A stretch of DNA of 64,000 nucleotides from an uncultured Verrucomicrobiaceae bacterium (lineage in GTDB: Bacteria > Verrucomicrobiota > Verrucomicrobiia > Verrucomicrobiales > Verrucomicrobiaceae): assembly GCA_937872615.1 (NCBI GenBank), contig CALMTT010000062.1, positions 1 to 64,000 of the forward strand, read 5' to 3'. Below the pieces are notes generated by a model that saw nothing but the letters and a program-made list of their open reading frames with translations, made no database searches and was not told the origin of the DNA. Below, piece after piece: positions 13,725 through 49,890 of this stretch. The stretch's first letter is position 1, and each line of letters starts with the position of its first letter. The translations under genes were made by a program, and so were the position numbers.

Positions 13725-13776
13725 ACTCCTCGTTAACGCAGCGTGGGATCCTGTTCGTAGGCTCTTGCTCAGCCTA
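13725..13776 (+). promoter_or_regulatory. Conserved 5' element of the second methyltransferase gene (copy B)
   Basis: ACTCCTCGTTAACGC at 13725-13739 (14/15 identical to copy A at 1880), then 19 bases, then TAGGCT (13758-13763)/AGCCTA (13771-13776) ending on the A of the ATG. Upstream similarity continues (GTTAC at 13711-13715 as in copy A). The identical spacing to two start codons of unrelated genes argues for a functional site. Confidence 0.7.
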
Positions 13777-19793: not shown

Positions 19794-20254
19794 CACCGCT
19801 TGGGTAGCATTGAGCTTTTTACTGCATTAATGAAATCCTGATGTCGCGGAGAGCCAAATTGAGGGTTGTCAATTGTCACATGCCTCAACGCAGCAGGACT
19901 GCCCCAGCATAGCGAGTAATAGATGCCGTCTTTTACTTTTCCCGTAAAGTTACCCAATTCGACGCCACCCTCTTCTACACAGTCCAGAACTTTCGCAAAA
20001 TCTGATTGTGGCAACTCGGTCTCAATCACTGTTCGCTCAGTTTTCTCCTTCAGGTTGGTTTGGCGGACTTTGAGATGGGAGGTGTGAGAGTGTTCCTCCA
20101 ATAAATAAGTCGTGCGAATGCCTGACAATGGAGTTGTCTCCACTAGCAAGATGGCCCTTTGCAAGTATGGAGTAGCATCAAACAACTCCAGTAGTTTAGC
20201 CTGGGCTGGCGGACAAAAGTGTTTTTGGAAGAGCCGTTTAAACAACTTGCTCAT
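19793..20254 (-). CDS. Unknown protein directly coupled to the RHS gene (immunity candidate)
   Basis: A 153-residue soluble protein (LFQKHFCPPAQAKLLELFDATPYLQ, RTTYLLEEHSHTSHLKVRQTNL, LPQSDFAKVLDCVEEGGVELG, KDGIYYSLCWGSP). No family recognised and no signal peptide. Its ATG overlaps the RHS stop codon as ATGA (20251-20254). In polymorphic toxin systems the gene immediately behind the toxin, coupled in this way and cytosolic, is usually the cognate immunity gene, so this is the best candidate here. Confidence 0.65.
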   Translation of the reverse strand: MSKLFKRLFQKHFCPPAQAKLLELFDATPYLQRAILLVETTPLSGIRTTYLLEEHSHTSHLKVRQTNLKEKTERTVIETELPQSDFAKVLDCVEEGGVELGNFTGKVKDGIYYSLCWGSPAALRHVTIDNPQFGSPRHQDFINAVKSSMLPKR

Positions 20255-23200
20255 TTGAAAAGCGAGTAGCCCACGCCGATTGCTCCAGCACCAACCGCCG
20301 CTTCACCAAAGTAGAGACCCGGCGACACTATCGTCCCACCACGCACAGCGTATGCACCATTGAAAGCGTGACTTATGCCGGACCGCAAACTGCCACTGGC
20401 GTATGTTTCAGCAATGATTTCCTCTGTGGCCTTGAGGAAAGCACTGTTGTCATATCCAAATTGTCCAACAGCTTGGCGAAGTCCCACCAAAGGTCCTCCC
20501 CTCGGAGTCAGGAACGAATGGACACTCTCGTGCGCCAAAGTAGATGCCTGTTGCGCTCTGGTGAGACCTGGCTGTAAAAATACCTCCCCTGTGGGAGTTG
20601 TGTATCCCAGAGTGCCGCTTCCGGCCAACTGCGCATCAGTTGCTGGTAACCGCAATGCGCGTAATCCTTGGATTCCTTCACTGGCAGCAGCCGCGCGCTC
20701 CGCGAACACACCTGCTTCGCCCGCTCTGCCAGCGTTCAACGCTTCCCCGCCATAAACCAACGCGGCGATTTGGGCGCCGGTGTAGCCGACGCGATATGCC
20801 GTAGAGTTATCCTCGCCGCCGGTCAAGTGGCTGCCCACACCGTAGAGTCGGTCCGCCGCAGAACCATAGGTAGCCTCGTCACCGGTCAGCGTGTAGCCGA
20901 TGCTGCCACCCACGTCGTAGAGCGTTTGCCCAACGCCTCGCACCGCACCGGAGAGTTGGTGTCGTTGCTGCCCATAAATGCTCTCGGCGGCTTCGTAGTC
21001 CACCAGTGCTGTAAGTCCGTAGCCGATTGTTCCTCCGACATTATAAGCCAATTGCCCGCCTCCTCTCGCTAAATCGACTCCCGCATCGAAAGCTCCTTTC
21101 CCAAACCTACCATCTGGGTCGAAATAGTTTACGGGGTCTCCCGAGCAGAATGAGTAGAGGTCCCCACTCCCTTCATGTCCCATCGGGTCACCACTGAGAA
21201 AGCGCCCCTCCACGGGGTCGTAGTATCGGTGCCCTAAATAGGTGAGGCCTGTTACATCAGACCACCGACCACGCCAAACGCTGGCCCCAGCCAGGTCCCC
21301 ACCGTGGCTTAATGGTGGGGGTCTATAACTTGGAACGGCCCCATAACCAGTGACCCGCGTCGGATACCAAGTAAGGGTCGAATGGCTAACATAGATGCCG
21401 TGAATGTTCCCTTGCACATCTGGAACCAGGGGACAAAACAGTTCCAATGTCGGAACGAATGCATCAAACCCGCCAGTCCCTTGCATCCCTCCATAAACCC
21501 CATTCACATCTGGACCTAGGAGTTTCCATGTTGTCCGACCAGCCTCGGTGACGCCAACTTCGAGAAATCTGTGTTCGGGGTCGTAATACTGCTTGATGAT
21601 TCGCGCTGCTGAGACGTTTGTAACGTTGTTGGTTACAACCGTGGTGAACGTGGTCGTCTGCAACCTACGCCCAAGCCCATCATAAACGGCGATCCAATCG
21701 AACCCGGACTTTTGGGAATCTCGCTCGCTGACTGTCAAAAGGCGACCACGGCCGTCCCAAACCAATGCCTGGCTTCGATTCGTTACAGACCCGTTTTTCC
21801 ACAGCCGATTTGTGATTTGACCTGCTGCATTGTAAAGAACCGAAACATTTTCAGTGGCATTGTTCGTGAAGGTGTTTGTCTTTGAAGCGATAAACCTTCC
21901 GCTTGAGTGAATTGCGCTTGCGACCAGTTTGTGAGCGCCTGGCGTTAGGTCTAAGGACGAGCGCCACTGAGGAGAGCTGGTTCCTACAAGGCTTACTGGC
22001 ATCGACCTGCCATCCAGATTGATAATCACCTGCCCTTTTCCTTTCACTCCACCGTAAGCAGGTCTACGGGAGACAGAGTTCGTTTCGAGTGATACACGAG
22101 ACAAGGCATCCAAACTTCCGCCCCACGCCACTCCACCACTTGCGACCGCACCCGCTCTTGTCAGAACTCCAACCCCAGAGGATTGCCCATTATCAAAGGC
22201 GAATGCATTCGTCCAAAAAGTGCTGGCTGCGACTGCGAGGCGTTCATTGATTAGCCTACGCGACTGAGCCGCGTAGGCGTAGGTGCGTTGGTCTTGATAG
22301 TCTACTCTGTCCAATTGATGAGACGCGAGTAAGCCATCTCCAGTCCACGCTAAAGTCTCAGTCAAAGAGGATTGACCGCCAACGTCTGTGGTCGCTCCAA
22401 GAATCCGTCCAGTGCCATCGCGTTGCGTGTAAGTTGTTGTCCGCTGGCCTACATTTCTGGAAGTGATTAGCCCTGCGGTGTTGTAACCGTAGGAGCCACC
22501 ACCTGTGACTCCATTGGCTGATTCCAAGAGCCCATCGCCTCTCCACGTGAATCCGATACCAAATGAGCCGTAGCTAAGCCCTTTCCGCCGCATCGCAGAG
22601 TCCCAACTTTCCATTGCTCCAGAGATTTTAGAGGTGCCCACAAACACGTCCTGACGTGTGCGTGAACCGTAGGCATCATACTCATTGGTAACCGTCGTCG
22701 ATGGCCCAGTGGTCCCACTGGCAAAGCTTTCGGAAATACTGGTCAGGAGTTCTCTGGCATCGTAGGAAAACGTTGTGGTCATCGAATACTGCGCCACAGA
22801 ATTGCTATGCGAATACACCTTGGAACTCTCGTGCAGCCACGCATCATATGACGTGAGGCACACCACTCCCAACGCGTTCGTCGTGTATTGAGGAAGTCCA
22901 GCAAAGGTGCTGTTAGTTGGGTAATAACCGTAAGCTGTCCTTCGGGCTGTCACTCCTCCGCTACCAACATTTTCCTCCATAAGGATTTGGCCTGCTCCGT
23001 TGTAACTTGCATTCCAAACGAGCGTGGCGCCAGGCATGATTCGATTCGTCACGTTTCCCAGAGCATCATAGGAAAATGTTGTAACGGCGTTGTCTCGGTC
23101 CACTTTCTTGACCAGACGACTTAACCCATCAAAAGTGTTTGTGACGGTCGAAAAGGTAACGACTGTCCCGTTCGAAGAGGATGAACGCACTGAAACAAGA

Positions 23201-26200
23201 TTGTTTCCAACTACGTCGAACTCCGAACGCCCAATCTCCAGCACACTGGCTGCTGGGTGCGCTATCCTAAGAACCACGTTTCCCGCATTGTCCGTGAAGG
23301 AATCACTGACTATCGCCCCTGCCCCTGCCCCTTCAGTCACTGTTACTCCGTGGTGAGTGGGAAGGTAAGAAAACGTTGTCTCCCGAATGAGGGTGTTGGC
23401 CCCGTTGCGGATTTCCGAACGAGTGGGACGCCCCAGAGCGTCTTTGTAGGTGACCGTTTTCTCACCGAGAGCATTTGCGGCGATGAACACCACTCCCGCC
23501 GCGTCATAGAAATTGGTTGTGCGCAGTTGCACTTGAGCCGGAGTATATCCAGGCAGGCTTGGCGGCTGTGCGTTGGTGGGGTAGCTGTTGGTCATCACCG
23601 GCCCCGTCGCCAGCTTGATTCGGTCCAGACCATCAAAGACGTTGGTCCACGTATTTCCACTGGGGTCTGCCTTTGCCACCACATTACCGCGACGGTCGAA
23701 CGATAGCGTGTTTGTAGCAAGTGGCCCATTCGCCGCAGTGTAGAATATGTGGGTTTCCTTTCGGTTTAGGTCGTCGTAACTCGTCTCCCAATAGGAACCG
23801 TTGCGCAACGTCTCTCGCCTTAAGCGACCATCGAGGTAATAACTCCAAGACCGTGTTGCTCCATCGGGGCCTCGCTCAAACTTTTTCTTTCCTGTGCTCG
23901 TGTATTGGGTCTCAGTCACTCCTCCAAGCGCATTGGTGTTAAAGCGCACAGAATCGGCTAGGTCATATGCAAACAGTTCAGTGCTTAGAACCGTTCCATT
24001 GGTATCAAGAACTCTGCTTTGAATGAGTCGCCCAATCGCGTCCCACGAGTTGGTAACGATAACGCCCCTTGGGTCGATGGTGCGCTTTAAGTTTCCAAAG
24101 GAGTCATACTCTCGAAAAGAGTTGGCCCACAGCGCATAGCCGGGCATGGCTTCGACCCCACTACCATCTACCTTAGCGGCGGACCTCCAGCGTGTTTCTG
24201 TAATTAACCGTCCAGCCGCATCATAGTCGCGCCAAACGTAGTCTTCTGGATTGTAACGTGGTCCATCGCTCCAAGTGAGTTCCCCGTTGTCATTGTAGTA
24301 GTTGTAGTCCCACGTCATAGGAACCCCTGTTTCACTAATGACCTCGGAACTCTTGAGCCTTCCTACGGCATCATAGTCGAAACGATTCGTGCGATTGGCT
24401 GCATCGATACGCTCCACCAACTGGCCTCGATTGTTGTAGACAAGTGCGACAACAACGTTCGAGTCCGCTGTGCCAGTATATCTAGTTGAGAGCAATGGAA
24501 ACCCGCGCCCATCGTAGCCCCAATCGGTAGTGGAGGCATCCGCAGTGCCAAAGGCTTTAAGCTCCTGCTTGACTACCCCAAACGCGATGTTCGTCAGACT
24601 CTGACCCCCTGCAGAGAATGTGTTGGTCACATTCTGTCTCAGAAAAACATTCGTGCTTATGGGAGTTGTCCCGCTTAGACGAATTATCTGCTGAGCCTGA
24701 TACGAATAGTTTGTATCGTAGACGTAGCGCGTTCTGTTCCCCACTGGGTCAATAACTTCCCAGAGAAGATTGTTCGTGTAACTCATCGTAGTCGCAGCGG
24801 TTTCGTTTGTGCTGCTTCCACCGGTCAGATTCCCCGTGACTACTACGTTGGTTACATTCCCGTTCGCGTCATACTTGTAGTCCGTGATGAGACCACGCTT
24901 ATCAACAAGCCGCTGCAAACTGCGCGGGTAGTATCCAACCAAGCTCGATTCATTGGTTAGATACCAGTCTTGGAGGATGATTCCCCCTACTGCATTTGAA
25001 ATTAGTGTAATCAAACCATTGGTGTAACCGTAGAGCGTGTTGTTACCGTTCACATCCAGGATGACAGTCGTCCCAGAAGGACTATTCGTTATCGCGCTGG
25101 CAAGGCTTTGACTTCCAGAATAGAGGAAACTTGCGTTGCGCACCAAGGCAAGGTTGTTGCTGACTGTGGACAATTGGTTTGTGACACGCCGATAAGCATC
25201 ATACTGATTCACCAGTAAACGACTGTCGGGTTTGATTTCTTTCAGCAACAGGTGGGTTGAGTAGGGCACTTGCGTCAGCACACTGCCATTCGTGATGGAT
25301 AGCGTTTTGTGCTCATACTCAAATGCTCGCTCACTTCCATCCGGCAAGGTCACGCTCGTCAAGTCACCGTGCTCGTCGTAAACGTAACTCGTTGCACGAC
25401 CATCGCCCGTGGCTGCTTCGATGATTCGCCCGAATATGTCATACGTTAGGACAAGAAAATTTCCGTTACTGGCTTGCACACGCCGCACTTCCTTGTAGTC
25501 CGGCATGGATACATTGGTTCCATATTCGTAAGTGCAAAAGTTGCCTCGGTCATCTTGCCACCTCGTCAGGTATGGCTTAAGGCTCGTATCCCCTGAAATA
25601 AGACCTGTTTGGTATTTCCGTGTGCTCCCGTCCGGCTTGGTGAGGGTATAGACCGATACCCCGCCATTTACCGTTCGCGTGATTTGGGATTTGAAATCAT
25701 TCGCCTTTGAACCCATTCCAGAAACGCTTCGATTGTCCAGGAGTGGATTCTTCTCTGCCTTAACCACCCAGGTGTTGTTGCTAAGAAATGAGTAAGCTAT
25801 AACCGAACCGTCAGGGTCTGCGGCGTAAATGGTGGTTTCATTGGTTGCAAGGCCGAGATACGGCATAAAGTTGAATTTCCAGCCATAGCCAAACTGATTA
25901 TTTGCCTCGTTAAGGCTCGAATAGTTTCGTTTGAGCTCCAACGGCATGGGGCCTGGTAGACTCAAATCCACCTCGCTCACCCAAAACTCCCCGGTAACTA
26001 CATCGACGGGGTCGGCTACCGTTGACCAGACTTTATCGGCGGCGGATAAAGCCGTGCTTAAGAGTCCGCGGTCCTCAACCGTTTGGAGGGCCTGTCCAAA
26101 TTGAGCGCTTGTTGTCCCTGAGCCACTAATCCCATAGACATTCAACGTGGCGATAGCGGCCTCATCCTGTGTAGCCGTTGTCGCGTAATATCCAGCCGTC

Positions 26201-29200
26201 GCATTGTTCACCACAGACGCGGTTGCAAAATCTGCTACCGCCTGTGGCGCTTGCTCCTTGTTGCCCGCGCTCGGCGGCGTGTAGTCCATGTAAAAGTCGC
26301 CACCAGGAGCCACACTGATGGAGGTTTGTGCTGCTTTCAGCAAATCGAAGGTCGTATCCGGAAGAGGTGGGCTGTAGCCGCCATTTATGCCTGGGCTAAT
26401 AAGTGCTGAAAGGTCGCCACCGGGCGTCCACAACAGTGCCCCCATACCAAGGTAGGTGTTTCCTGTGTTTGTCAGCACCCCAGGCGTTACGAATCCGACT
26501 CGGAAATCCTTACGATAGGGGTCTTCAAAAAAGTTCGTTACACTAGCCCATATCGCGGAGTCATGATTCTTTAGCAGGACCCCATTGTAACTGGTATTTC
26601 CAAACGTTCGATAGTTCGTGGCGTCCATCGAAAGAATCCCTGGCACCGATACAGTGGAACGTTTTTGGGCAAGCTGAAGCAGTTTGACTGTCGATACAGC
26701 CTCCGTCTGCCCAAAGAAGGCATTCATCGCACGATGCTCTTCCGAGGATCCACCGACAAGGTGCATCGCTAGCCAATCTTCCGAACCTGAGTTCAAGTCC
26801 AAGCCCGAATCCGGGTGCACTGTCCAATTGCCTGCAATCACCATGCGGTGTAGTCGCACATCAATCATCGGCTTGGTGAGAATGATATCTCCTGAGTTCG
26901 GTAGTGCTCCACTGACATGCTTGGCCGCCAGGACAACCAGGCTGCCGTCGAAATAGCTAAATCCAGAAGCCTTGTGCAAACGGGTAAGAACCTCCCGCAA
27001 TCGGCTCAATCGCTCGTAATACGAAAGACCTGCCATGACAGCGTATCCGCCCTGATAAAGGTCCGGCGACAAAGAATTTGTTGCAGAGGGGTTGGTTGTC
27101 AGGAGGCGCTGCATCGCCCACATGTCATTGGCATGAACATTGAGCATCGCACGCGAAACCGCCCCATAGTTGAAGCACACCGCTGCGAGGTCTCCTTTAC
27201 GCATTGGGTAGTCTGACATGGAGGCAGCTGATTCGATAAGGGATGGAAACGTGGTATTCGGGTTCGGGAACGTTCCTCCGAGTCCCTCCCACCACCCTCG
27301 ATGCCGCTTGTAGGTAAGTTTTACATTCAACGCATCGTCGCTTGAATTCAACGCGGTGCTTACCTGCTGCGCGCGAAGAAGAGAATCCCCAACGGTGAAG
27401 TTCGTAGCACCAGTTGCACCCGAGCGAAACTCTGCTAACGAGAGGATTAAATTGTGCGCATTTGCTCCGGTCTTCTCGTGACGCACGATCATTCGTCGAT
27501 TGTGCAGGTCGACCAATCTCAGCTCTCCGCTACTCACCTTTTTGGTCGGATTGCTCACGCTCGACACTTCCACAGTCATCGTATCGAAAATCTTGGTCAA
27601 TCGAGGCGAGGCATTTGTGAGCTCAGAAGAAGACAACGTGTCAACCGCAACCGCAGTTGCCGGAGTGACCCAAGGATGAGGAAAATCTGCCCATCGATGG
27701 TAGGCATTTTTGCGACTTCGCCATGAGTAGCCGACGTCATCCAACGACAACCCAGGGGCTGATTTCTGCAATTCTTTCTGAATGAACCTTTCGTAAATTC
27801 CAAGAACAGTGTCGTCATCAGTGACAGAAGCGAGGATGTTGGTATCTCCAAAAATGTAGCTCCTAGCCCACTTAAACCCGTTGTCGTAGGCGCTCGGCAT
27901 GTAATCATAAAGGTTCAGGCCCTCGATGACCTCCGTGTCCTTTAGCCAGGGAAATAAGTGAACCCACGAATTGTTCACATACGCCGCCACCCATGGGTAA
28001 TTCACCGGCAGCGCACGGTTCGTGGTATACGCTGCGCTCATGTTGTTCACGGCTTTAGACACCTGCAGACGCAGCAGACTGTTATACTGCTTATCCAAGA
28101 GCTTCATCTGGTTGTGGTAGGGATATACGTAGACAGTCGGGACTCCAGCTTGTCGGAGTAAGTAAACCAACAACGCACACTGCTCAGCGGGAGCTCCTCG
28201 CCCTTCCAAGAATGTTCCCAAAGCTCCTCGCGCAACACCGCCTTGGTTTAGGGATACCTCCGTCACCGCCCCATTCTCATTGAATCCCAATGCATCCGAC
28301 ATCTCGATTGCATTGTGCACATATCGTGTCAGTGCGATTGGGTCCTGACGCATGTCTTTCACGAATTGGTCCAAAGTTGGGTGCCTTCTGAGCTCAGGGC
28401 TATGATCCAAATTGGTGTATGTGGTCGCGCCAAACGGGAGACTGAACGTCGTAGTGACAGCGTTGTTTGTTAACAACTGCTCGGGTGTTTTCCCTGCGTA
28501 AGCCGAGGGTATGGGCTCTCCTTCGAATTGGGTTTGGTCCACGAATATTGTTCTCGACTGAGGCCGTGCCTCAAAGTCCAGAGTGTAAAGGGGGCTATCC
28601 GTGACGTCACCCGAACCAACCGCCACCATCGGGTAGAAATCTGGCACCGATGGCAATATGTTGATGTAAGCAACAATTCCGACTTGATACACTTTATTTG
28701 TCGCACTGGCGTCGGCTGCGTGAGTTAGGATGACTGTTCCGCGTCTATAGACTCCCCACTGTGACTCGTGGCCTTGTGTCTCATCCCCATCTTGCATAGC
28801 AATCGTGGTCGTCAACCCATTGGAACTTACGGTCAATGAATAGCCGTTAGTCTTGAACGAAAGCCATTCCGGAGGCGTAAAAAAGCTATCGGGAATATCC
28901 ACATACTGAGGGCCAACGTAAGTGAGATTTGTGCCGCTGCGGGTCCAACAGTTTATCACCACTTGAGGAGTGCTGATAAACTCTCCTGCATACGCACCAA
29001 AGCGATAACGCTGTCCCACATAGAGTGGACTACCCCCAACACGGGTTCCAAACGATGCAATCGGGTTTCGAAATGCAATTCGAGTTCCAAGGTCTGTCAG
29101 ACTCGAACTTACCGCCTGATTGTAGTGATACCTAAGTGCAGAACCTGGAAGATAAGGAAGCAGGGTGTCACTCGCCCCTCCGTTGTCACCACAGACACGG

Positions 29201-29370
29201 CCTTTTTGAAAATCCAAAGTGACAACAAAAGAATGACCCTCCGCGTTCGTTCCTGAACCACGAACAAAACGTCCTGTTTTGATGCTGTCCTGCTGAGCAA
29301 AAAGCGATGCCTCAGTAAGTATCAATAGCATCACAATGACCCACCCGATTCCATTCGTGCGATGATTCAT
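20251..29370 (-). CDS. Giant exported RHS/YD-repeat protein with transglutaminase-like N-terminus and HExxH C-terminal domain
   Basis: A 3039-residue exported protein. Order of parts: signal peptide (residues 1-25, SLFAQ); beta-rich region; transglutaminase-like segment with Cys near 399 (GAPAEQCALLVYLLRQAGVP) and His near 470 (NNSWVHLFPW); long linker; DUF6531-type entry to the shell near 1120 (DPVDVVTGEFWVSEVDLSLPG); many YD repeats (such as GxxTxYxYDxxGR) to ~2650; and the RHS core end GLTYLGHRYYDPVEGRFLSGDP at ~2715. The variable C-terminus (to 3039) has Gly-rich hydrophobic stretches and then LAHESVHSF near 2947 and EEIIAETYASGSL, a HExxH...E zinc-metallopeptidase pattern. By analogy with polymorphic toxins, the shell encapsulates the C-terminal domain, which would be the toxin. 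It is the main gene of a leftward operon with a coupled unknown gene behind it. The transglutaminase-like part is unusual in classical RHS toxins but fits large verrucomicrobial versions. Confidence 0.88.
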   Translation of the reverse strand: MNHRTNGIGWVIVMLLILTEASLFAQQDSIKTGRFVRGSGTNAEGHSFVVTLDFQKGRVCGDNGGASDTLLPYLPGSALRYHYNQAVSSSLTDLGTRIAFRNPIASFGTRVGGSPLYVGQRYRFGAYAGEFISTPQVVINCWTRSGTNLTYVGPQYVDIPDSFFTPPEWLSFKTNGYSLTVSSNGLTTTIAMQDGDETQGHESQWGVYRRGTVILTHAADASATNKVYQVGIVAYINILPSVPDFYPMVAVGSGDVTDSPLYTLDFEARPQSRTIFVDQTQFEGEPIPSAYAGKTPEQLLTNNAVTTTFSLPFGATTYTNLDHSPELRRHPTLDQFVKDMRQDPIALTRYVHNAIEMSDALGFNENGAVTEVSLNQGGVARGALGTFLEGRGAPAEQCALLVYLLRQAGVPTVYVYPYHNQMKLLDKQYNSLLRLQVSKAVNNMSAAYTTNRALPVNYPWVAAYVNNSWVHLFPWLKDTEVIEGLNLYDYMPSAYDNGFKWARSYIFGDTNILASVTDDDTVLGIYERFIQKELQKSAPGLSLDDVGYSWRSRKNAYHRWADFPHPWVTPATAVAVDTLSSSELTNASPRLTKIFDTMTVEVSSVSNPTKKVSSGELRLVDLHNRRMIVRHEKTGANAHNLILSLAEFRSGATGATNFTVGDSLLRAQQVSTALNSSDDALNVKLTYKRHRGWWEGLGGTFPNPNTTFPSLIESAASMSDYPMRKGDLAAVCFNYGAVSRAMLNVHANDMWAMQRLLTTNPSATNSLSPDLYQGGYAVMAGLSYYERLSRLREVLTRLHKASGFSYFDGSLVVLAAKHVSGALPNSGDIILTKPMIDVRLHRMVIAGNWTVHPDSGLDLNSGSEDWLAMHLVGGSSEEHRAMNAFFGQTEAVSTVKLLQLAQKRSTVSVPGILSMDATNYRTFGNTSYNGVLLKNHDSAIWASVTNFFEDPYRKDFRVGFVTPGVLTNTGNTYLGMGALLWTPGGDLSALISPGINGGYSPPLPDTTFDLLKAAQTSISVAPGGDFYMDYTPPSAGNKEQAPQAVADFATASVVNNATAGYYATTATQDEAAIATLNVYGISGSGTTSAQFGQALQTVEDRGLLSTALSAADKVWSTVADPVDVVTGEFWVSEVDLSLPGPMPLELKRNYSSLNEANNQFGYGWKFNFMPYLGLATNETTIYAADPDGSVIAYSFLSNNTWVVKAEKNPLLDNRSVSGMGSKANDFKSQITRTVNGGVSVYTLTKPDGSTRKYQTGLISGDTSLKPYLTRWQDDRGNFCTYEYGTNVSMPDYKEVRRVQASNGNFLVLTYDIFGRIIEAATGDGRATSYVYDEHGDLTSVTLPDGSERAFEYEHKTLSITNGSVLTQVPYSTHLLLKEIKPDSRLLVNQYDAYRRVTNQLSTVSNNLALVRNASFLYSGSQSLASAITNSPSGTTVILDVNGNNTLYGYTNGLITLISNAVGGIILQDWYLTNESSLVGYYPRSLQRLVDKRGLITDYKYDANGNVTNVVVTGNLTGGSSTNETAATTMSYTNNLLWEVIDPVGNRTRYVYDTNYSYQAQQIIRLSGTTPISTNVFLRQNVTNTFSAGGQSLTNIAFGVVKQELKAFGTADASTTDWGYDGRGFPLLSTRYTGTADSNVVVALVYNNRGQLVERIDAANRTNRFDYDAVGRLKSSEVISETGVPMTWDYNYYNDNGELTWSDGPRYNPEDYVWRDYDAAGRLITETRWRSAAKVDGSGVEAMPGYALWANSFREYDSFGNLKRTIDPRGVIVTNSWDAIGRLIQSRVLDTNGTVLSTELFAYDLADSVRFNTNALGGVTETQYTSTGKKKFERGPDGATRSWSYYLDGRLRRETLRNGSYWETSYDDLNRKETHIFYTAANGPLATNTLSFDRRGNVVAKADPSGNTWTNVFDGLDRIKLATGPVMTNSYPTNAQPPSLPGYTPAQVQLRTTNFYDAAGVVFIAANALGEKTVTYKDALGRPTRSEIRNGANTLIRETTFSYLPTHHGVTVTEGAGAGAIVSDSFTDNAGNVVLRIAHPAASVLEIGRSEFDVVGNNLVSVRSSSSNGTVVTFSTVTNTFDGLSRLVKKVDRDNAVTTFSYDALGNVTNRIMPGATLVWNASYNGAGQILMEENVGSGGVTARRTAYGYYPTNSTFAGLPQYTTNALGVVCLTSYDAWLHESSKVYSHSNSVAQYSMTTTFSYDARELLTSISESFASGTTGPSTTVTNEYDAYGSRTRQDVFVGTSKISGAMESWDSAMRRKGLSYGSFGIGFTWRGDGLLESANGVTGGGSYGYNTAGLITSRNVGQRTTTYTQRDGTGRILGATTDVGGQSSLTETLAWTGDGLLASHQLDRVDYQDQRTYAYAAQSRRLINERLAVAASTFWTNAFAFDNGQSSGVGVLTRAGAVASGGVAWGGSLDALSRVSLETNSVSRRPAYGGVKGKGQVIINLDGRSMPVSLVGTSSPQWRSSLDLTPGAHKLVASAIHSSGRFIASKTNTFTNNATENVSVLYNAAGQITNRLWKNGSVTNRSQALVWDGRGRLLTVSERDSQKSGFDWIAVYDGLGRRLQTTTFTTVVTNNVTNVSAARIIKQYYDPEHRFLEVGVTEAGRTTWKLLGPDVNGVYGGMQGTGGFDAFVPTLELFCPLVPDVQGNIHGIYVSHSTLTWYPTRVTGYGAVPSYRPPPLSHGGDLAGASVWRGRWSDVTGLTYLGHRYYDPVEGRFLSGDPMGHEGSGDLYSFCSGDPVNYFDPDGRFGKGAFDAGVDLARGGGQLAYNVGGTIGYGLTALVDYEAAESIYGQQRHQLSGAVRGVGQTLYDVGGSIGYTLTGDEATYGSAADRLYGVGSHLTGGEDNSTAYRVGYTGAQIAALVYGGEALNAGRAGEAGVFAERAAAASEGIQGLRALRLPATDAQLAGSGTLGYTTPTGEVFLQPGLTRAQQASTLAHESVHSFLTPRGGPLVGLRQAVGQFGYDNSAFLKATEEIIAETYASGSLRSGISHAFNGAYAVRGGTIVSPGLYFGEAAVGAGAIGVGYSLFK

Positions 29371-41361: not shown

Positions 41362-42561
41362 ATGATCATACCAGGCGGTTTTCATACATTGACACCGACT
41401 CAGCTCTGCAATGTGCTTTGGACATTCCAGGAACGTCGTATTTCAAACCAGGCGTTCCGCGTGGCGTTCGCAGTAGAGGCTCAGCAGGCGATAGGATGCG
41501 CACTCCGCCGCCTTCGCCCCCAACGGAGATCACTCCTGTCGAACGCTCCAGAGCTGCTTTCTCGCCTGTCAGGCATTCCCCGCGATCGGGTCGCGACCGC
41601 ACTCCGTCAACTCGATCGCGCTGGCGTCCTTGCAGGACCAGGACTGCGAAGGACACCGATCCCGGGAAGCGAGGCATTGCTCGAAGTGCTACGCTGTCGA
41701 CGAAGCGCGCGTCGCCCCATCCCTGTGCCGCGAAGAATCCTGACGTTTCTGGCCCAGCACTCCGCCCTGGCGCTGAGCCAGGTGATGATCGGATATCTAC
41801 TCCGGGGACTCTCCCGCCATCCTCGAACGGGCGAGATGGGTCACCGGGGCACGGTGAAAGCCTCCTGGCTCGCGCGTCATCTCGGGCTGAGCCTCCGCAG
41901 CGTGCGTTTGGCTCGGGCCTCTCTCATCGACCAAGGCTGGATCAGCGCCGATACCCAAAGCGTCCAACGGAAGCTCAATCGGGATGGTGCCTATTTCACG
42001 ATTCGCTTAGACTGGAAACCGAACCCAGTCAGAACATCCCAGGAGTCGCGCCCCATGTCTCCTCCAGCGCCTACCCAGAACCGCCACCTTCATCGCGAAT
42101 CTGCACCCCTCCAGCCCAATCGTCCCCCGGATTTTGCACCCCCTAAAGAAGACCTGAGAACTTCTATCGAAAAAGATCAAAACCAGAGAACTCACCCAAC
42201 CGCTCCGCTGCCTGAGCCGAATCCTGGTGTTTGCAAAACCAAGCCCAATCTGAACGCGGTTCAACTCGAAGATCTGCGGAATTTCGGTCGCATGGAAATT
42301 CTCTTTCGCCAGGCCGTGCAGCGATACGGGCTCCCCCCCGTCGAAGCTGAAGTGCTCAACTTTATCGCCGCCGCCGTGCGTGCCCGTGAGATCGGCCGTG
42401 ATCCTGCCCGGGTCTTTGTGTGGATGGTGCGCCACCGCAAATGGGATCACATCACCCAGGCCCAGGAAGATTACGCCCGACGCGCTTTGGCACGCTATCG
42501 GCAGGCGGATTCGGATCGATTTCGACCGGATACGACCAAGGGAGTGGGGGAGATGAATTAA
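41362..42561 (+). CDS. Winged-helix protein, candidate replication initiator
   Basis: About 399 residues from ATG 41362, preceded by GAGGAACAGAGG. The N-terminal part is rich in helix-turn-helix-like segments (ELLSRLSGIPRDRVATALRQLDRAGVL and KASWLARHLGLSLRSVRLARASLIDQGWI), matching the tandem winged-helix plan of plasmid Rep or DnaD-like proteins. A Pro/Gln-rich linker (about 240-310) leads to a C-terminal helical domain (FGRMEILFRQAVQRYGLPPVEAEVLNFIAAAV). Divergent from parA, with repeats between them, which supports an initiator role. A transcriptional regulator is the alternative. Confidence 0.55.
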   Translation: MIIPGGFHTLTPTQLCNVLWTFQERRISNQAFRVAFAVEAQQAIGCALRRLRPQRRSLLSNAPELLSRLSGIPRDRVATALRQLDRAGVLAGPGLRRTPIPGSEALLEVLRCRRSARRPIPVPRRILTFLAQHSALALSQVMIGYLLRGLSRHPRTGEMGHRGTVKASWLARHLGLSLRSVRLARASLIDQGWISADTQSVQRKLNRDGAYFTIRLDWKPNPVRTSQESRPMSPPAPTQNRHLHRESAPLQPNRPPDFAPPKEDLRTSIEKDQNQRTHPTAPLPEPNPGVCKTKPNLNAVQLEDLRNFGRMEILFRQAVQRYGLPPVEAEVLNFIAAAVRAREIGRDPARVFVWMVRHRKWDHITQAQEDYARRALARYRQADSDRFRPDTTKGVGEMN

Positions 42562-43943
42562 CGAAACCAGGAACAGACCGTGCCGTCCGGCTGAATCGGC
42601 GGGAGTAAGATCTTTCGATACCCATGCTCCGCATGAACCACCACACAGTAATGCTTCTTGAGTTTCCGCAATTGCGACGGTTCGAAACGATATTGTTCCT
42701 GCCGATGACGAGTTCGCGAACGGCGTCCGTCACCTCGCGTCTCTGATTCCTGATAGCCTTGCTTCTTTCCAACAAACTCAGCACTTGCTTTGGCATCTTC
42801 CTCATCTGCCGCGGTAAAGAGCAGACGATTGCGAAGGTTCAAGGTCAGGACCTTGCTCGCTTCGGCCCCTAATACTGGAACAAAGGACGTTGTGCTTTGA
42901 GTTGCCGCGATAAAAGCCACCCCGGCCTCACGAACCACATCCACGATGGAATGATCGCTTACCCCGTCTTCCGAATGCGTCATGAAGTGCTGAGCTTCGT
43001 CCGCCAGGAACAGCAGCAGATTGCAGGCAGCACGCTCCTCGGGGGAACGATCAAAGCGGCGCAACGCTTGAAGATAGAACAGATGCTTGAGCAGGGTTCC
43101 GACAAAGCGGCGCTCGGTCTGAAGTCGCTGGGGCAACGCGAGACAGACCAACTTTCCCTTTTCCATATCGGACAAGCTAAAGGTGCTGTCTCGGCAAAAT
43201 ACTTCGGCCACTTCGGGCGTGGTGAAGTGGTGGAGATAATTCGTGATGGTTCCCGTAATACCGGCCAACTGTTCCGCAGGTTGCCCCAGAAACTTTTCAA
43301 AATGCTTGATGAGGGCCTCGCAGCCAGGTCTTCCCGTCATCTGTTCCACCGCTTCTCGCAATTCATCCAGATCGGTCAACAGATGATAGAGGTTCTCCAA
43401 GCTCACGTCATATTCCAGAGCCGCCAAGACCGCGAGCCCCTCCGCAATATGGATCTGCGCCGCACTGCGAAAGAACCCTTGCTCGCGTCGATTACCAAGA
43501 CTGCTGGCCGTGTCTACGATACAGCGGGCATACGTGGCAAACGGGATGGTGCGATCTCCCACCAAATTGAAGCGATGAACCGGTTTCGCCTCGGGATCCA
43601 AACTTCGATCCACTACGCGCAAGAGCATCACATCCTGCTTGCGTCCGAAGCTGTGCGCCATGGCGCTCACCGTCTCGTGCAAAGTCCCTTTGTCGTCAAT
43701 CACCAGGCCTCCGAATGAGGGTAGATTCGAGAAGAGCTGATGCAGAATCTGTCGCACCCCACTTACGGTCTTTCCTGATCCCACCGCTCCCAAAATCAGC
43801 CAGCCTCGACAAAAGTCCTGCACGGTCCAATGGAGTCCACCCAGACGACATGCAATCGGCCCGTTGCGCCTCGGTCCCAAAAGCAGTCGGGTCGCCATCC
43901 AAAGCCCCCCCAATGCCAGCCCATACCAAAGGAGCGGCTTCAT
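42558..43943 (-). CDS. Type IV coupling protein (VirD4/TraG/TraD-like ATPase)
   Basis: About 461 residues from ATG 43943, which has GGAGGT upstream. One N-terminal membrane segment (LLWYGLALGGLWMATRLLL), Walker A GAVGSGKT (52-59), the family's GGLVIDDKG step and Walker B LLLFLADEAQ, then VAFIAATQSTTSF and LRNRLLFTAADEEDA. It would bring relaxase-bound DNA to the type IV secretion channel. It is shorter than classical VirD4 (about 650). The start overlaps the stop of the AAA+ gene as ATGA, so both are coupled. Its 3' end overlaps the convergent gene by four bases. Confidence 0.88.
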   Translation of the reverse strand: MKPLLWYGLALGGLWMATRLLLGPRRNGPIACRLGGLHWTVQDFCRGWLILGAVGSGKTVSGVRQILHQLFSNLPSFGGLVIDDKGTLHETVSAMAHSFGRKQDVMLLRVVDRSLDPEAKPVHRFNLVGDRTIPFATYARCIVDTASSLGNRREQGFFRSAAQIHIAEGLAVLAALEYDVSLENLYHLLTDLDELREAVEQMTGRPGCEALIKHFEKFLGQPAEQLAGITGTITNYLHHFTTPEVAEVFCRDSTFSLSDMEKGKLVCLALPQRLQTERRFVGTLLKHLFYLQALRRFDRSPEERAACNLLLFLADEAQHFMTHSEDGVSDHSIVDVVREAGVAFIAATQSTTSFVPVLGAEASKVLTLNLRNRLLFTAADEEDAKASAEFVGKKQGYQESETRGDGRRSRTRHRQEQYRFEPSQLRKLKKHYCVVVHAEHGYRKILLPPIQPDGTVCSWFR

Positions 43944-44854
43944 ACGACCACCTCCACATGATCGGCAACCACCGCCAAACGTGCGTTGCCGCCGCCTCCA
44001 CGCATAACCCACCCGGCGATCGCATCGCCCACGTGTTCATCCACAAACTGGTGGAGTGTCCGGGCCCCAAGCCGACGCGAGTAGCCTCGACACGCCAAAT
44101 ACGAGATGACACCCGGATCCACTGTCAGGAGCCGTCCTTTCGTCGCGTTCATCTCCACGATGCGCCGAACGTATCCCTCCGTGATTTCCAACTGGGCCTG
44201 GCGACTCAAGGGTTGGAACACGTAGGGGCGACTAAACCGGGCTCGCAACTCGGGCCGTAACCACGATTCCACCGCCCGGATCACATGACGTTCAATGCTC
44301 GAAAACGGAAGATGCTCGCGCCCGGCCACAGCGCCCGCCCCTAAGTTGGTGGTGACGATGACGTAAATGGATTTCAGACTCAGAGACTCACCCGCCGCGT
44401 TGGTCAGCACTCCATCCCCAACGCCCTGAAGGAAGAGATGCACCAGATCCGGATGAGCCTTTTCAATCTCATCAAACAACCAGACCCCCGCCGGGACCCG
44501 AGCAAACGCTTGCGCTAAGCGCCCCGCGTCCCCATCTCGATTGCCGAACAATCCCTCATAGGCCGCCAAGGTTTTGAACTCCGAACAATCGAGGCGAACC
44601 AAACGTTCCGCCCCAAATAGCCCGTTGGCTAGGGTGAGAGCCAATTGGGTTTTTCCAACGCCGGTGGGACCGGCGAAGATGAAGCCGCCTCGAGCCCCCG
44701 GTTGAGGAACGGCTTGAAGTTCGCGCCGCTGAATCTCACGCGCCAAGCGCTGGACCACGGGCATCTGACCGCGGACGTGGGTAGTAAAGTAGGTTTCCAG
44801 AGTCGATAAGTCCGCGACCACCGGAACAAGGGCTTTTGCTTTTGGTTTAGTCAT
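43940..44854 (-). CDS. Stand-alone ClpB-D2-like AAA+ ATPase
   Basis: A 304-residue AAA+ protein. It matches the second ATPase module of ClpA/ClpB: VRGQMPVVQRLAREIQRR (28-43), Walker A GPTGVGKT (62-69), Walker B VWLFDEIEKAH (124-134), sensor 1 VIVTTNLGA, arginine-finger region LRPELRARFSRPYVFQPL and sensor 2 RRLGARTL. The N-domain, first ATPase module and coiled coil of true ClpB are missing. It is coupled by ATGA to the VirD4-like gene, so it may remodel or unfold a transfer substrate or relaxosome component. That role is inferred. Confidence 0.82.
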   Translation of the reverse strand: MTKPKAKALVPVVADLSTLETYFTTHVRGQMPVVQRLAREIQRRELQAVPQPGARGGFIFAGPTGVGKTQLALTLANGLFGAERLVRLDCSEFKTLAAYEGLFGNRDGDAGRLAQAFARVPAGVWLFDEIEKAHPDLVHLFLQGVGDGVLTNAAGESLSLKSIYVIVTTNLGAGAVAGREHLPFSSIERHVIRAVESWLRPELRARFSRPYVFQPLSRQAQLEITEGYVRRIVEMNATKGRLLTVDPGVISYLACRGYSRRLGARTLHQFVDEHVGDAIAGWVMRGGGGNARLAVVADHVEVVV

Positions 44855-44990: not shown

Positions 44991-47900
44991 GTGGCACGCC
45001 CTGGGGAGGTGCATCGATTCACTCATTCCATTCCAACCAAGGTCGCGTGCCTCCTCGGGCCTCTGCTCCTGGGGTTCTTCTTGGTTCGGGTGGCTCAGGC
45101 TCAATTGCCCTCGGCCATTTCTTCTGATCCCAAGACTGAATTCCTCCAACGAGACGCCGAAGCGAAGCGGGCCGAAGCCGAGGGCCGGTGGGACCAAGCG
45201 CTGTCCCTGCGCCGGGAAATGGTGCAAGTCCTCGAAAGTCGATTCAGCCCCGAGAATCCCTTGGCGGATCAGGCGCGTGTCAGCCTCGTCGAACCCCTCA
45301 GCGCCTTTGGACGTTACGCAGAAGCGCGGGCAGTGCTCACGAAGTCCCTGGAATTACGTCAACGGCTCCTGCGCCCAGGCAATCCGGCGATTACCGATGT
45401 GCTGATCCGATTGGGGGAGGCCTGTCGGAATGAAGGAGATCTCAAGGCGGCGGAACAGCTCTACCGAAACGCCGAAGAGAGCCTGTCCTCCACGCACCCG
45501 CTTCGTGGTGCGTTACTCGGTTTAATTCGAAATGGGCAAGCTCACCTGGATGTGTTGGCCGGAGACAAAATCGCCGCTGAAAAGAAGTGGGGTGAGGCCC
45601 TCACCTTGATGGAATCGGTTCAGCCTCCTCAACCCGCTCGCGTCGCGCTGGTGCTCACCAGCCTCGGCGAGGTGCATCGTAGCTTTCGACAACTCGACCG
45701 CGCTCTCAAAGAACAGCAGCGTGCGGCAGAACTGCTCGCACAGCATGCACCCCATTTACCCTCGCGCTGGTTGGTCGACAACAATCTGGCCTCGGTTCTT
45801 CGCGATCAACGCCGCTCGCGCCAAGCCCTGCCGCTTTACACCAACAGCCTTCAATCGTTCCTCACACTCCGCTCCTCCAATCATCTGGAGATTCTCCACG
45901 TTCGACGAAACCATGCGATGGCCCTGAGTATGGCAGACGATTCTCAAGGGGCCTTGGCCACACTCACGGACGCGTTGAACCAAATGGACGCCACGGGTCT
46001 GACCAATCATCCACTCTATCGCACCTTGCGATTGGACCAAGCGGATGAGCTACTGCGACAAGGGGATTTGATCGGATCGGAACAGCTCTATCAAAGCTTG
46101 TATCAGCAATGGGCCCTCGCTCCGGACCATCCGCAACGACTCGACATTCAAGAGCGCCTAGCGACCCTCGCCGAGCGGCGTGGAAACCTGGCCGAAGCGT
46201 TCGATCAATGGGAGACCGTGCTCAACCGCCGTCGTAGCCTGGCTCAAACCGAACCCCGTCGAACTCCTGAACTCACCTCCACCCTCATCGGATACGCCGG
46301 ACTCGAACGGTCCCTCGGACGATTCGATCGCGCTGGCGACCGCTTAGAGGAGGCATTGAAGCTACCCCCCGCACCCGACGTCAGCGATCCGCTCCTCCTG
46401 GCGGATGCGTTGGAAGCACTCAGCACCACAACAGCCGCTGCTTACCAATGGAAGAATGCGTTGCGTTACTCGGAACAGGCACTCCGACTGCGCCGTGAAA
46501 TCTTAGGCGCGACTCATTCGTTGGTCGCCCGCAGCCAGCTCCAGAACGCAGAGTTGCTCCAGGCCATAGGCAATCTCGCCGCCGCAGAACCGCTCCTTCA
46601 ACAGGTGCGCACCTTTCTCCAGAATTCCGACACTGAGGATGCAAGTCTACGCATCGTAGCGGATGCCGTTGAAGGACGCTGGTTACAAGCCTCCGGCCAA
46701 TGGGACTTGGCCGCAGCACGATTGAAGCGCGCATTGGATGCTTCCGAAACCCAAGCACGATACCTCAACGCTGGCCTCCTCGCCGATATGGCCTGGGTCG
46801 ACCTGGAACGGCATCAAACGAACACAGCAGTAAGTCTTGCAACCCGCGCGCTGACGTCCCTGGAGACGGCCTGGGAAAACGTCCTCCGATTTACTCCCGA
46901 AGAGGATCGATTGGCCTGGCAGGACTCCGCAGATTTGCTGCCGCTATTGGCAGCTCTCGGAAAGCTCGAGCTCCTCGCACGCGCCGTGTTGCATCTGAAA
47001 GGCTTGGTCCTGGACACCACCATCGAAGAACGACAACTAGTCCGACTGGAAACCGCCGACACTTCGATCGCCGCCCTTCGCGAGGCAAGGAAAAGGCGCT
47101 ATCAACTGGAGCTCGCTCGCGGAAGCCTTCAACCCCCATCGCCTACCGAGCTGAACTCCGCCCGTCAGACGGTAGAGCAACTCGAGTCCGCCATCGCGCG
47201 TCGCTCCTCCGTCCTGCGGGATCATCGACGTGCGTTTGGTGTAACCGTTGAATCTGTTCAGAACGCCTTGTCGCCCGATTCCGTGCTGCTGGAGTATGTG
47301 CGTTATCCCAAGCGGATCGCGAACCGCCAATCTCAAGCCTGGCTGGGCGTTCTGGTGTTCAAGCCACGAGCCGCGGTTCAATGGATCGAGCTTGGCCCGG
47401 CGACAGGCCCCAACTCCATCGGCCACTTCGCCCAAGAATGGCAAAACGCCATGCGCAACCCGGCACCGCCTACCGATTCGCAAGCCATCACGACCCTCTC
47501 CAACCTAGCTCAACAGGTTTGGCAACCCATAGCCGAACGGCTCGGGGCAAACGACCGTCAAATTTGGGTCGCTCCTGACGGTGAAGTAAATTGGGTTCCT
47601 TTCGCGGCGCTCTGGCATCGAGATCGCTTCGCCGGGGAGACCGTTTCCTTCCGTTACTTAACCTCGGGGCGAGACTTGCTCTCCGAATCGGTCGCTCCTC
47701 CCAAGACTCGCTCGATGGTCGTCCTCGCTGCTCCCGAATTTGACCGCTCCAAGTCTGCAAAAATAGAAAACCGGTCCGCGTGGCAATCCTTCAAGGACTT
47801 CTTGAAAATCCCCGGTCTTCGGGGAGAGGGTGCTGCTGAGCTCCCCACGCGATATGACTCTCGCCCTTACACCGCGCTGGAGGCCGATCAGATTGTCGCC

Positions 47901-48542
47901 ATCGCTCGGAAGGCAGGCCTCGAATCCGTGACACTCTTGCGGGGAGAGCAAGCAACGGAACAGGCCGTCACCCGGCTCAATTCTCCCTTTGTGCTTCATT
48001 TCGCGACCCACGCCACCTTTCTGCCCGATGCGGTTGCCTCGCCCTGGACGGCTCGCAGTCAGCCCGAAAGACCGCATCAATGGTTGGCTCATCCCATGAG
48101 CCGAGCGTGGATCGCCCTAGCGCATGCCAATGACACGTTGGAAGGATGGCGGGCCGGCAAACCTCCTGATCCCACCAACGACGGACTTCTTTCTGCCGAG
48201 GAATTCGCGTCCTTGGACCTGTCTCAAACCTGGCTAGTCTCCTTGAGTGCCTGCGAGACAGGAGCGGGCGTGGTGCGGAGTGGCGAAGGGGTCTTTGGAT
48301 TACGACGCGCCGTCGCCTTGGCCGGTTCGAGGCATGTCCTCATGACCCTTTGGCCCATCAGCGACAAACCGTCTCAGGAATTGATGGCGGTCTTTTACAA
48401 AGACTTGTTCGCCACGGGCCAACCGGCTCTGAGCCTGTCGCAGGTTCAACAGCGCAAACTCAGCGAGTGGCGAACCGCGGAAGGCCCTTCACGCGCGGCA
48501 CGCTGGGCGGGGCCCTTTATCCTGAGCTCCATGGGAAAGTGA
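44991..48542 (+). CDS. Exported TPR-CHAT protease
   Basis: About 1183 residues. A hydrophobic N-terminal segment ending near VRVAQAQ (about 20-38) indicates export or membrane anchoring. Then come about 600 residues of tetratricopeptide repeats (such as RWDQALSLRREMVQVLESRF, FGRYAEARAVLTKSLELRQ), a helical linker, and the C-terminal CHAT caspase-like domain. The CHAT dyad is visible: His near 1005 in VLHFATHATF and Cys near 1086 in LVSLSACETGAG, with GVFGLRRAVALAGSRHVLMTLWPISD after it. CHAT proteases cut partner proteins once their sensor domain is triggered. Start is GTG 44991; GTG 45009 is an alternative. It is convergent with an anti-sigma-like and a sigma-like gene (27-base gap). Confidence 0.88.
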   Translation: MARPGEVHRFTHSIPTKVACLLGPLLLGFFLVRVAQAQLPSAISSDPKTEFLQRDAEAKRAEAEGRWDQALSLRREMVQVLESRFSPENPLADQARVSLVEPLSAFGRYAEARAVLTKSLELRQRLLRPGNPAITDVLIRLGEACRNEGDLKAAEQLYRNAEESLSSTHPLRGALLGLIRNGQAHLDVLAGDKIAAEKKWGEALTLMESVQPPQPARVALVLTSLGEVHRSFRQLDRALKEQQRAAELLAQHAPHLPSRWLVDNNLASVLRDQRRSRQALPLYTNSLQSFLTLRSSNHLEILHVRRNHAMALSMADDSQGALATLTDALNQMDATGLTNHPLYRTLRLDQADELLRQGDLIGSEQLYQSLYQQWALAPDHPQRLDIQERLATLAERRGNLAEAFDQWETVLNRRRSLAQTEPRRTPELTSTLIGYAGLERSLGRFDRAGDRLEEALKLPPAPDVSDPLLLADALEALSTTTAAAYQWKNALRYSEQALRLRREILGATHSLVARSQLQNAELLQAIGNLAAAEPLLQQVRTFLQNSDTEDASLRIVADAVEGRWLQASGQWDLAAARLKRALDASETQARYLNAGLLADMAWVDLERHQTNTAVSLATRALTSLETAWENVLRFTPEEDRLAWQDSADLLPLLAALGKLELLARAVLHLKGLVLDTTIEERQLVRLETADTSIAALREARKRRYQLELARGSLQPPSPTELNSARQTVEQLESAIARRSSVLRDHRRAFGVTVESVQNALSPDSVLLEYVRYPKRIANRQSQAWLGVLVFKPRAAVQWIELGPATGPNSIGHFAQEWQNAMRNPAPPTDSQAITTLSNLAQQVWQPIAERLGANDRQIWVAPDGEVNWVPFAALWHRDRFAGETVSFRYLTSGRDLLSESVAPPKTRSMVVLAAPEFDRSKSAKIENRSAWQSFKDFLKIPGLRGEGAAELPTRYDSRPYTALEADQIVAIARKAGLESVTLLRGEQATEQAVTRLNSPFVLHFATHATFLPDAVASPWTARSQPERPHQWLAHPMSRAWIALAHANDTLEGWRAGKPPDPTNDGLLSAEEFASLDLSQTWLVSLSACETGAGVVRSGEGVFGLRRAVALAGSRHVLMTLWPISDKPSQELMAVFYKDLFATGQPALSLSQVQQRKLSEWRTAEGPSRAARWAGPFILSSMGK

Positions 48543-48569
48543 CCTGGAACTGGAGCGGTTCGTTTCAGT

Positions 48570-49211
48570 CTAGGGCACGTAGCCCTGCTCAATGTCGGTG
48601 CCCGGCGCGTTGCCCACCGTCAATCGGCCCTTCAATAGCACACCAATAACTTCAGAGGATCCCTTGATCACCTGCACCTGGGGAGCATTGGTCAAGACAA
48701 CGGTGCCCTTGAACAGCACCCGCTCTCCCCGAGCATTGGTTCCGGCCAGATCCACATCGAACGAGGTGGTGTTATTGTTCGCGGCGCGTGTCGCTGAGTC
48801 GATAGCGCCACTCAGCCTTGTTCCTGCATCGGCAAGTTCCAGGCGACTCGAGCGAACGTTCAATTGCAGCTTTGGAGGCAGTCCACTAGCGACGCCGCCT
48901 GCGCCCTGAAAGGATCGCTCACCCCAGGGATATACGTAAACCAAGGATCCGGTGATCAACACGAAGGCGGCGAAGGCGACGGCCTTCGCCTCAGGTGATA
49001 AACACAAGAATGTCCACAATTCACTCCAGAAGGAAGACCGACTCGTCTTCGAGCCATAAGGCTTCAGATGAGTGCCGCGCAACTGATCCCAGTCTCGTCG
49101 CAACTGGTCTTCGGTCGCCCGCTTGCGCACGATTTCTAATGCCCGTCGATGCGCCTCTTCCGATTCCTTGCGCAACGCCTCTCTGGTTTCTGGATCCATT
49201 GGCTCAGGCAT
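48570..49211 (-). CDS. Single-pass membrane protein, anti-sigma/FecR-like candidate
   Basis: A 213-residue protein: a highly charged N-terminal cytoplasmic part (1-75, REALRKESEEAHRRALEIVRK), one membrane helix (about 76-94, AKAVAFAAFVLITGSLVYVY) and an extracytoplasmic beta-rich part (LQLNVRSSRLELADAGTRLSG ... GTVVLTNAPQVQVIKGSS). Layout and overlap with the sigma-like gene (49204-49211) fit an anti-sigma factor. No exact family was recognised. Its periplasmic half would be within reach of the exported TPR-CHAT protein made by the gene facing it. Confidence 0.6.
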   Translation of the reverse strand: MPEPMDPETREALRKESEEAHRRALEIVRKRATEDQLRRDWDQLRGTHLKPYGSKTSRSSFWSELWTFLCLSPEAKAVAFAAFVLITGSLVYVYPWGERSFQGAGGVASGLPPKLQLNVRSSRLELADAGTRLSGAIDSATRAANNNTTSFDVDLAGTNARGERVLFKGTVVLTNAPQVQVIKGSSEVIGVLLKGRLTVGNAPGTDIEQGYVP

Positions 49212-49890
49212 GCGCTTTATCCTTGGTTTTCAAGATGGCGGCAGCGGCGCGTGTTCGATCTCCGAGACCAGCTTCGCAGTCCAGCAAGCGCTCATGGGCT
49301 GTGCTTTTTGGAATCCCAAACGTGGATGCGACCTCCGGGCTGCTGAAATCCTGCTGCTTGAAAAAAAGTATGTCGCAGGCTTGTCGGCAGTGCCCCAACC
49401 GCAGGAGCTCCGGTGGCCTACGATGGCACTTCAGTTGGCAGCATTCAGCCGCCATCGCTTTAAGCATGGGTTCGAGTTGTGGCAGTTGGAATTCTGATTC
49501 CTGGTCCTGGGTGTCGGGTTGATCCGTGAACTTCTGCAATAAGTCGCGGACGGTCTCTTTCATCTGCAACGCGACCCAACTTCGAGGGCTATGCTTCCTC
49601 CAACGGACGTGCGCGATGGCTCGCCCCAAAGGCGTGAAGTCAGGACGCCAGCCAACTCGGGCAAAGAGCTCATTGCGGACGTGCTCCGTTGCATTTGCAG
49701 CGATGGTAGCATTGTCCGTCTCGAGAGCGGAAAGGCGTAAAAGGAAAACCTCCAAGGGTTCTCGAAGCGCTATAAACTTCTCTTTGGTCTTGGCATCCAA
49801 ATCGTCAAAGGACCGATGCCGGTTTTTATGAACCAGTTCAGCCAAGTCTTGGATTTGCCGCTTGGTGATCGGAAAGAATCCAAAGTCCAT
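49204..49890 (-). CDS. Sigma-factor-like protein (divergent ECF type)
   Basis: A 228-residue soluble protein. The C-terminal HTH ACDILFFKQQDFSSPEVASTFGIPKSTAHERL is like sigma region 4.2 ("...l-y-e-q.. s..EiA..lgi..stv..rl"). The N-terminal part (FDDLDAKTKEKFIALREPLEVFLLRLS, VGWRPDFTPLGRAIAHVRWRKH, ALQMKETVRDLLQKF) has helices in region-2-like positions but no clear core-binding signature, so the assignment is tentative. It overlaps the membrane gene by eight bases, the usual sigma/anti-sigma order. Confidence 0.5.
   Translation of the reverse strand: MDFGFFPITKRQIQDLAELVHKNRHRSFDDLDAKTKEKFIALREPLEVFLLRLSALETDNATIAANATEHVRNELFARVGWRPDFTPLGRAIAHVRWRKHSPRSWVALQMKETVRDLLQKFTDQPDTQDQESEFQLPQLEPMLKAMAAECCQLKCHRRPPELLRLGHCRQACDILFFKQQDFSSPEVASTFGIPKSTAHERLLDCEAGLGDRTRAAAAILKTKDKAHA

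Follow-up and report, generated by a model that had tools for sequence, protein, structure and literature searches.

A 64,000-nucleotide stretch of Verrucomicrobiota DNA (hereafter the window, bases 1-64000 of a 69.7-kb contig from a metagenome-assembled genome, MAG) carries a cassette made up of an exported TPR-CHAT protease (tetratricopeptide repeats, TPR, followed by a caspase-like CHAT domain), a single-pass membrane protein, T213, and a small helix-turn-helix (HTH)-like protein, S228. The cassette is real and unusual, and we propose, at a probability of about 0.4, that its three parts form a signalling switch of the envelope, which a conjugative element carries as cargo. The protease would be located outside the inner membrane, its TPR part would sense a ligand, and its CHAT domain would then cut the outer part of T213, probably near the membrane; only the outer half of a single-pass partner would be within reach of an exported protease. 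A host site-2 protease would complete the cleavage and release S228, which would act on target genes either as a divergent sigma factor or as another HTH regulator; M50 site-2 protease genes are present in the host genome. We infer the anti-sigma role of T213 and the sigma role of S228, as well as the cleavage of T213 by CHAT, the order of the cuts, the signal and the targets. The reading of the three genes as protease, anti-sigma factor and sigma factor is plausible, as it fits their position, the predicted topology and the analogy with Craspase.

The exported protease and its convergent partners

The cassette is composed as follows:

44991..48542, + strand: TPR-CHAT protease, 1183 aa, GTG start (signal peptide ~1-37; TPR ~65-625; CHAT domain 835-1176; H1007, C1088)
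48543..48569: gap between the convergent stops of CHAT and T213, 27 bp
48570..49211, - strand: T213, single-pass membrane protein, 213 aa
48894..48920, - strand: ERSFQGAGG, juxtamembrane segment of T213 outside the membrane, candidate cleavage region
49204..49211, - strand: overlap of the S228 end with the T213 start, 8 bp
49204..49890, - strand: S228, 228 aa, candidate sigma factor by position

This layout, in which the CHAT gene converges on a membrane gene that in turn overlaps S228, had been described in an earlier note on this DNA, and the coordinates of the open reading frames (ORFs) agree with it. The exported TPR-CHAT protease of that note is likewise borne out: the CHAT domain matches Pfam PF12770 (E 1.2e-54, 186 bits against a curated cut-off of 24), several TPR matches precede it (Pfam TPR_12, E 6e-36), and the N-terminus, MARPGEVHRFTHSIPTK-VACLLGPLLLGFFLV-RVAQA/Q, looks like a Sec signal peptide by inspection of the sequence. 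The catalytic pair is present as well, with the numbering, given as His ~1005 and Cys ~1086, off by two residues; H1007 (in HFATH) and C1088 (in SACETG) are both invariant in the alignment with relatives (7 sequences). The signal peptide, found here and in the sigma-linked relatives described below, some of which also bear a C-terminal anchor, argues against a cytoplasmic CHAT domain. No sigma70-like promoter was found in a promoter search at CHAT and S228.

T213 contains one hydrophobic stretch (residues ~77-93), the predicted transmembrane segment (TM), and the topology predicted from its sequence places residues 1-76 in the cytoplasm and ~120 residues outside. An AAGGA Shine-Dalgarno-like motif lies 5' of its ATG, and the overlap of the two reading frames suggests translational coupling of S228 and T213. 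The codon signature of both is that of the element's genes, while that of a long antisense ORF differs, so T213 and S228 are taken as real genes. T213 matched nothing above chance in Pfam, NCBIfam or PADLOC, no recognised anti-sigma domain (zinc-finger ASD, FecR, RseA) was detected in it with Pfam or NCBIfam, and neither close relatives nor viral contigs contained a relative of it. The label 'anti-sigma-like' of the earlier note is a weak one: the single TM and the gene order agree with it, the gene upstream being itself a candidate sigma. T213, encoded just after S228 and with the topology predicted above, is a candidate anti-sigma factor. A sigma gene followed by the gene of a single-pass partner is the usual layout for an extracytoplasmic function (ECF) sigma factor with a membrane anti-sigma factor.

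S228 is predicted, at low confidence, to be all-helical, with an HTH resembling sigma region 4 or LuxR at ~178-204. Searches of Pfam, NCBIfam and PADLOC gave nothing above chance, and a PDB sequence search gave no match. Against a profile of 26 ECF sigmas from the host genome S228 scored 10.5 bits, a value that 1 of 2000 shuffled sequences and 4 of 781 other ORFs of comparable length also attain; the core of this alignment is the 27-residue HTH end, which LuxR-type HTHs match too. While the weak C-terminal HTH thus stands above chance, the 'sigma-like' protein of the earlier note has neither a region-2 match nor a family match, and the term may be considered fair for an HTH protein in the position of a sigma factor, not as an identification. 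Two matches at E 8e-4, the sole genomic matches outside the host, cover residues 158-220 and were rejected as LuxR-type HTHs of response regulators, not true relatives.

Recurrence of exported TPR-CHAT, sigma and membrane-protein genes

CHAT genes were collected from 388 genomes of the phylum, with the surroundings taken for nearly all matches. Sigma genes were called by profiles built from the ECF sigmas of the host genome and from the first CHAT-linked sigmas, and export was judged from hydrophobicity, the starts of three genes, set wrongly, being corrected by eye. In this Verrucomicrobiota sample, a sigma gene lies within 2.1 kb of 12 of the ~31 exported TPR-CHAT genes and of 0 of 12 non-exported ones (Fisher p 0.009, or 0.03 with L190, which has a mis-set ORF start, placed among the non-exported), and after each of the 12 sigma genes comes a gene for a single-pass membrane protein. 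No sigma gene was found between 2.1 and 4.4 kb from the sampled CHATs; one sigma-TM pair 5.5 kb upstream of a CHAT gene (L193, in genome G283) was left out of the count. Given ~40-50 sigma genes in 6-7 Mb (the window's own genome has 39 region-2 matches), the chance expectation is ~4-6% per gene; the corresponding binomial p of ~1e-9 to 1e-7 makes the enrichment look stronger than it is, since 7 of the 12 cases come from one genus.

The neighbourhood of exported TPR-CHAT, sigma and single-pass protein whose recurrence the earlier note had asked about is found in five Verrucomicrobiota families (f2, f9, f31, f58 and f85), and four further cassettes occur in named MAGs (L069, L071, L129 and L090). 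The order is CHAT-sigma-TM at L024, L027, L188 and L187, sigma-TM-CHAT at L069, L071, L129 and L191, and sigma-TM-FecR-like-CHAT at L194 and L200, and a haemagglutinin-like gene separates CHAT from the sigma-TM pair at L026, L178, L179 and L190. At L090 the pair is divergent from CHAT; at L189 it runs towards CHAT with one gene between, akin to the converging layout of the window. The window pair repeats the order and overlap of the recurrent pairs, namely a gene in the sigma position and then the TM gene. Sigma regions score above the Pfam cut-off at L024, L071 and L191, and the sigma of L027, with no Pfam match, was detected only through the host-sigma profile (E ~1e-5). A divergent sigma-like family of ~306 aa was observed beside exported CHATs at L026:5585-6502, L027:9928-10851, L178:10379-11296, L179:9996-10913 and L188:6528-7451. 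Measured against these cassettes, the window has the exported CHAT and the TM gene, with S228 as a candidate sigma by position; S228 and T213 are orphans with no sequence tie to the recurrent families, thus position and topology are what the reading of the window is built on.

The sigma-linked CHAT relatives have a signal peptide as well; L190 shows one only with its start shifted to an internal codon. The CHAT proteins of one clade additionally end in a C-terminal TM anchor, and this would keep the protease on the membrane in which the TM protein sits. The partners of this anchored clade and those of the L069/L071/L024 group, two related groups, carry Arg-Gly (or Arg-Ser/Asp) just outside the membrane. 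As a guess, this motif might be a cut site; other CHAT-linked partners lack it. The ERSFQGAGG segment of T213 resembles an SFRG segment in one clade of the CHAT-linked membrane proteins.

Mapped on a CHAT-domain tree, sigma linkage calls for ~10 changes, of which at least 5 fall on well-supported branches (undetected sigmas and contig ends would inflate the figure); it seems to have been gained and lost repeatedly. Exported TPR-CHATs of cyanobacteria and Verrucomicrobiota share with the window's protein the signal peptide, the TPR part and the C-terminal CHAT domain, at ~24-39% identity over the aligned part. Unlike the recurrent cassettes, those nearest to it in sequence have no detected sigma neighbour, and several of them are kinase fusions or adjoin two-partner-secretion genes. 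Among the closest relatives, L060, L133 and L062 are very long ORFs with a Ser/Thr kinase-like N-terminus, TPR and CHAT. Exported CHATs stand beside TpsA/TpsB-like two-partner-secretion genes at L172:7402-13201, L174:1497-11467 and L169:7514-11648, and at L174 a CHASE2-like sensor is also nearby (all named by eye from sequence). No sigma neighbours were found beside L012, L013, L023 and L025.

Weighing the switch against other readings

A number of results weigh against the proposed switch. The window CHAT is a long, poorly placed branch beside unlinked CHATs and outside the sigma-linked ones, and many exported CHATs have no sigma neighbour, thus CHAT function does not require a sigma factor. 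For S228, there is no Pfam match to Sigma70 region 2, the scores against profiles of CHAT-linked sigmas are no better than chance, and no relatives were found in the 388 phylum genomes, 56 close relatives, GTDB contigs, viral contigs or plasmids; AlphaFold models of S228 alone and together with four CHAT-linked sigmas reached a predicted local distance difference test (pLDDT) of 44 and 49, respectively, and are unusable. T213 gave no significant match to the profile of the membrane proteins of the SFRG clade (188 of 2000 TM-preserving shuffles were as good), and its juxtamembrane segment has Gln (SFQGAG) where the partners with the Arg motif carry Arg. Finally, no two-block promoter motif common to CHAT and S228 was found, and this also counts against the main rival explanation, in which the S228/T213 pair senses envelope conditions and turns on CHAT together with other genes; CHAT would then be an output with surface or secreted proteins, e.g. 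two-partner-secretion adhesins, as the substrates it processes, and would never touch T213. We regard this protease-as-output scheme as rather unlikely, somewhat less probable than the switch, and the observations agree with both readings. Sigma operons often include their own targets, and exported CHATs without a sigma (L169, L172 and L174) adjoin TpsA/TpsB-like, CHASE2-like sensor and FecR-like genes. A haemagglutinin-like secreted protein is also encoded within the sigma-linked cassettes of one genus, and because CHATs adjoin genes of secretion or adhesin type, surface-protein processing is an equally good common theme. On the other hand, the window CHAT lacks a neighbouring gene of secretion or adhesin type, and several cassettes have CHAT pointing away from the sigma operon or opposed to it, thus CHAT is not always a member of that operon.

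It is improbable, in our view, that S228 is a small LuxR/GerE-like C-terminal HTH regulator tethered to the membrane by T213, in which case any switch would be a membrane-tethered transcription factor. The HTH is the sole sequence signal in S228 and its genomic matches outside the host are all of the LuxR response-regulator type; however, its helical pattern, size and position suit an ECF sigma equally well, and L027's clade likewise has a CHAT-linked sigma that Pfam does not pick up. Least probable of the explanations considered is that chance put the convergent genes side by side as unconnected cargo of the conjugative element. Much unrelated cargo is indeed present on the element, S228 and T213 both lack relatives, the convergent sides do not form one operon, and another CHAT of the host genome adjoins a coupling-protein gene, suggesting an insertion hot spot; against this, the recurrent cassettes have just this composition, with an overlapping HTH/single-TM pair next to an exported CHAT.

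The conjugative element and related systems

By its integrase, relaxase, coupling and transfer genes the window looks like a conjugative element:

1932: phage-type integrase
5867-8330 and 13776-16007: BsuBI/PstI-type restriction endonuclease and methylase, and a second long ORF in which a methylase is joined to the N-terminal domain of the endonuclease
36132: TrwC relaxase
42558-44854: ClpB-like AAA and TraD coupling genes
55516: VirB4-like transfer gene
62982: TrbI/VirB10 transfer gene

As the earlier note had placed it, the cassette, with CHAT on the + strand and S228/T213 on the - strand, is flanked by the coupling genes (42558-44854) on one side and by the VirB4/TrbI transfer genes (from 55516) on the other. 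Its borders were not definable, an empty-site comparison via the ClpB-like AAA gene having given overly distant matches. The MAG is 7.4% contaminated, thus the contig's host is uncertain. In contig C593 of the same genome (L014:8074-11866), a second TPR-CHAT gene, non-exported, directly adjoins a fragment of a TraD-like coupling protein, the arrangement also seen in the window; the coupling-protein gene is possibly an insertion hot spot for cargo of related elements. The window also holds an RHS-repeat protein of 3039 aa (20251-29370) and a group II intron match (Rfam RF00029, 33950-34049, - strand).

In the cytoplasm, Craspase has been shown experimentally to relieve CASP-sigma through the cleavage of Csx30 by Csx29 (PMC10028731). 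The cassette is like this type III-E system (Cas7-11, the TPR-CHAT protease Csx29, Csx30 and CASP-sigma) in that a TPR-CHAT protease is encoded together with a sigma factor and an inhibitor of it, both candidates here. Unlike in Craspase, the window protease is exported and the candidate inhibitor lies in the membrane and matches no family; in a PDB sequence search the CHAT domain matched no chain, which sets it far from Csx29. Neither a Cas7-11/gRAMP effector nor Csx30 was found among the genes scanned around the cassette, a part of the window's ORFs. Regulated intramembrane proteolysis of the RseA/DegS/RseP type offers the other likeness, with an ECF-type sigma (in the relatives), a single-pass inner-membrane partner, a protease on the outer face and an available site-2 protease; the site-1 protease proposed here would differ in being a cysteine protease of the TPR-CHAT type, where that pathway uses a PDZ serine protease. 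We tentatively extend the switch to the family, a step for which the odds are somewhat unfavourable: exported Verrucomicrobiota TPR-CHATs may be site-1 proteases for ECF anti-sigmas, a CRISPR-free Craspase switch with membrane topology, carried here by a conjugative element whose sigma has diverged beyond the reach of current profiles. Open-access searches that paired CHAT or TPR-CHAT with sigma factors, anti-sigma factors or two-partner secretion returned only papers on the CRISPR protease, one review of non-canonical ECFs and work of a general kind, and exported TPR-CHAT/sigma cassettes are provisionally undescribed, no description having been found in the open-access literature (subscription papers lay outside the scope).

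The recurrent cassettes with clear sigmas, some of them in completed genomes, make the idea directly testable. Should it prove true, the role of caspase-like CHAT proteases would extend to sensing at the envelope and controlling transcription, and Craspase's sigma logic would look like a widely reused module rather than a CRISPR invention.

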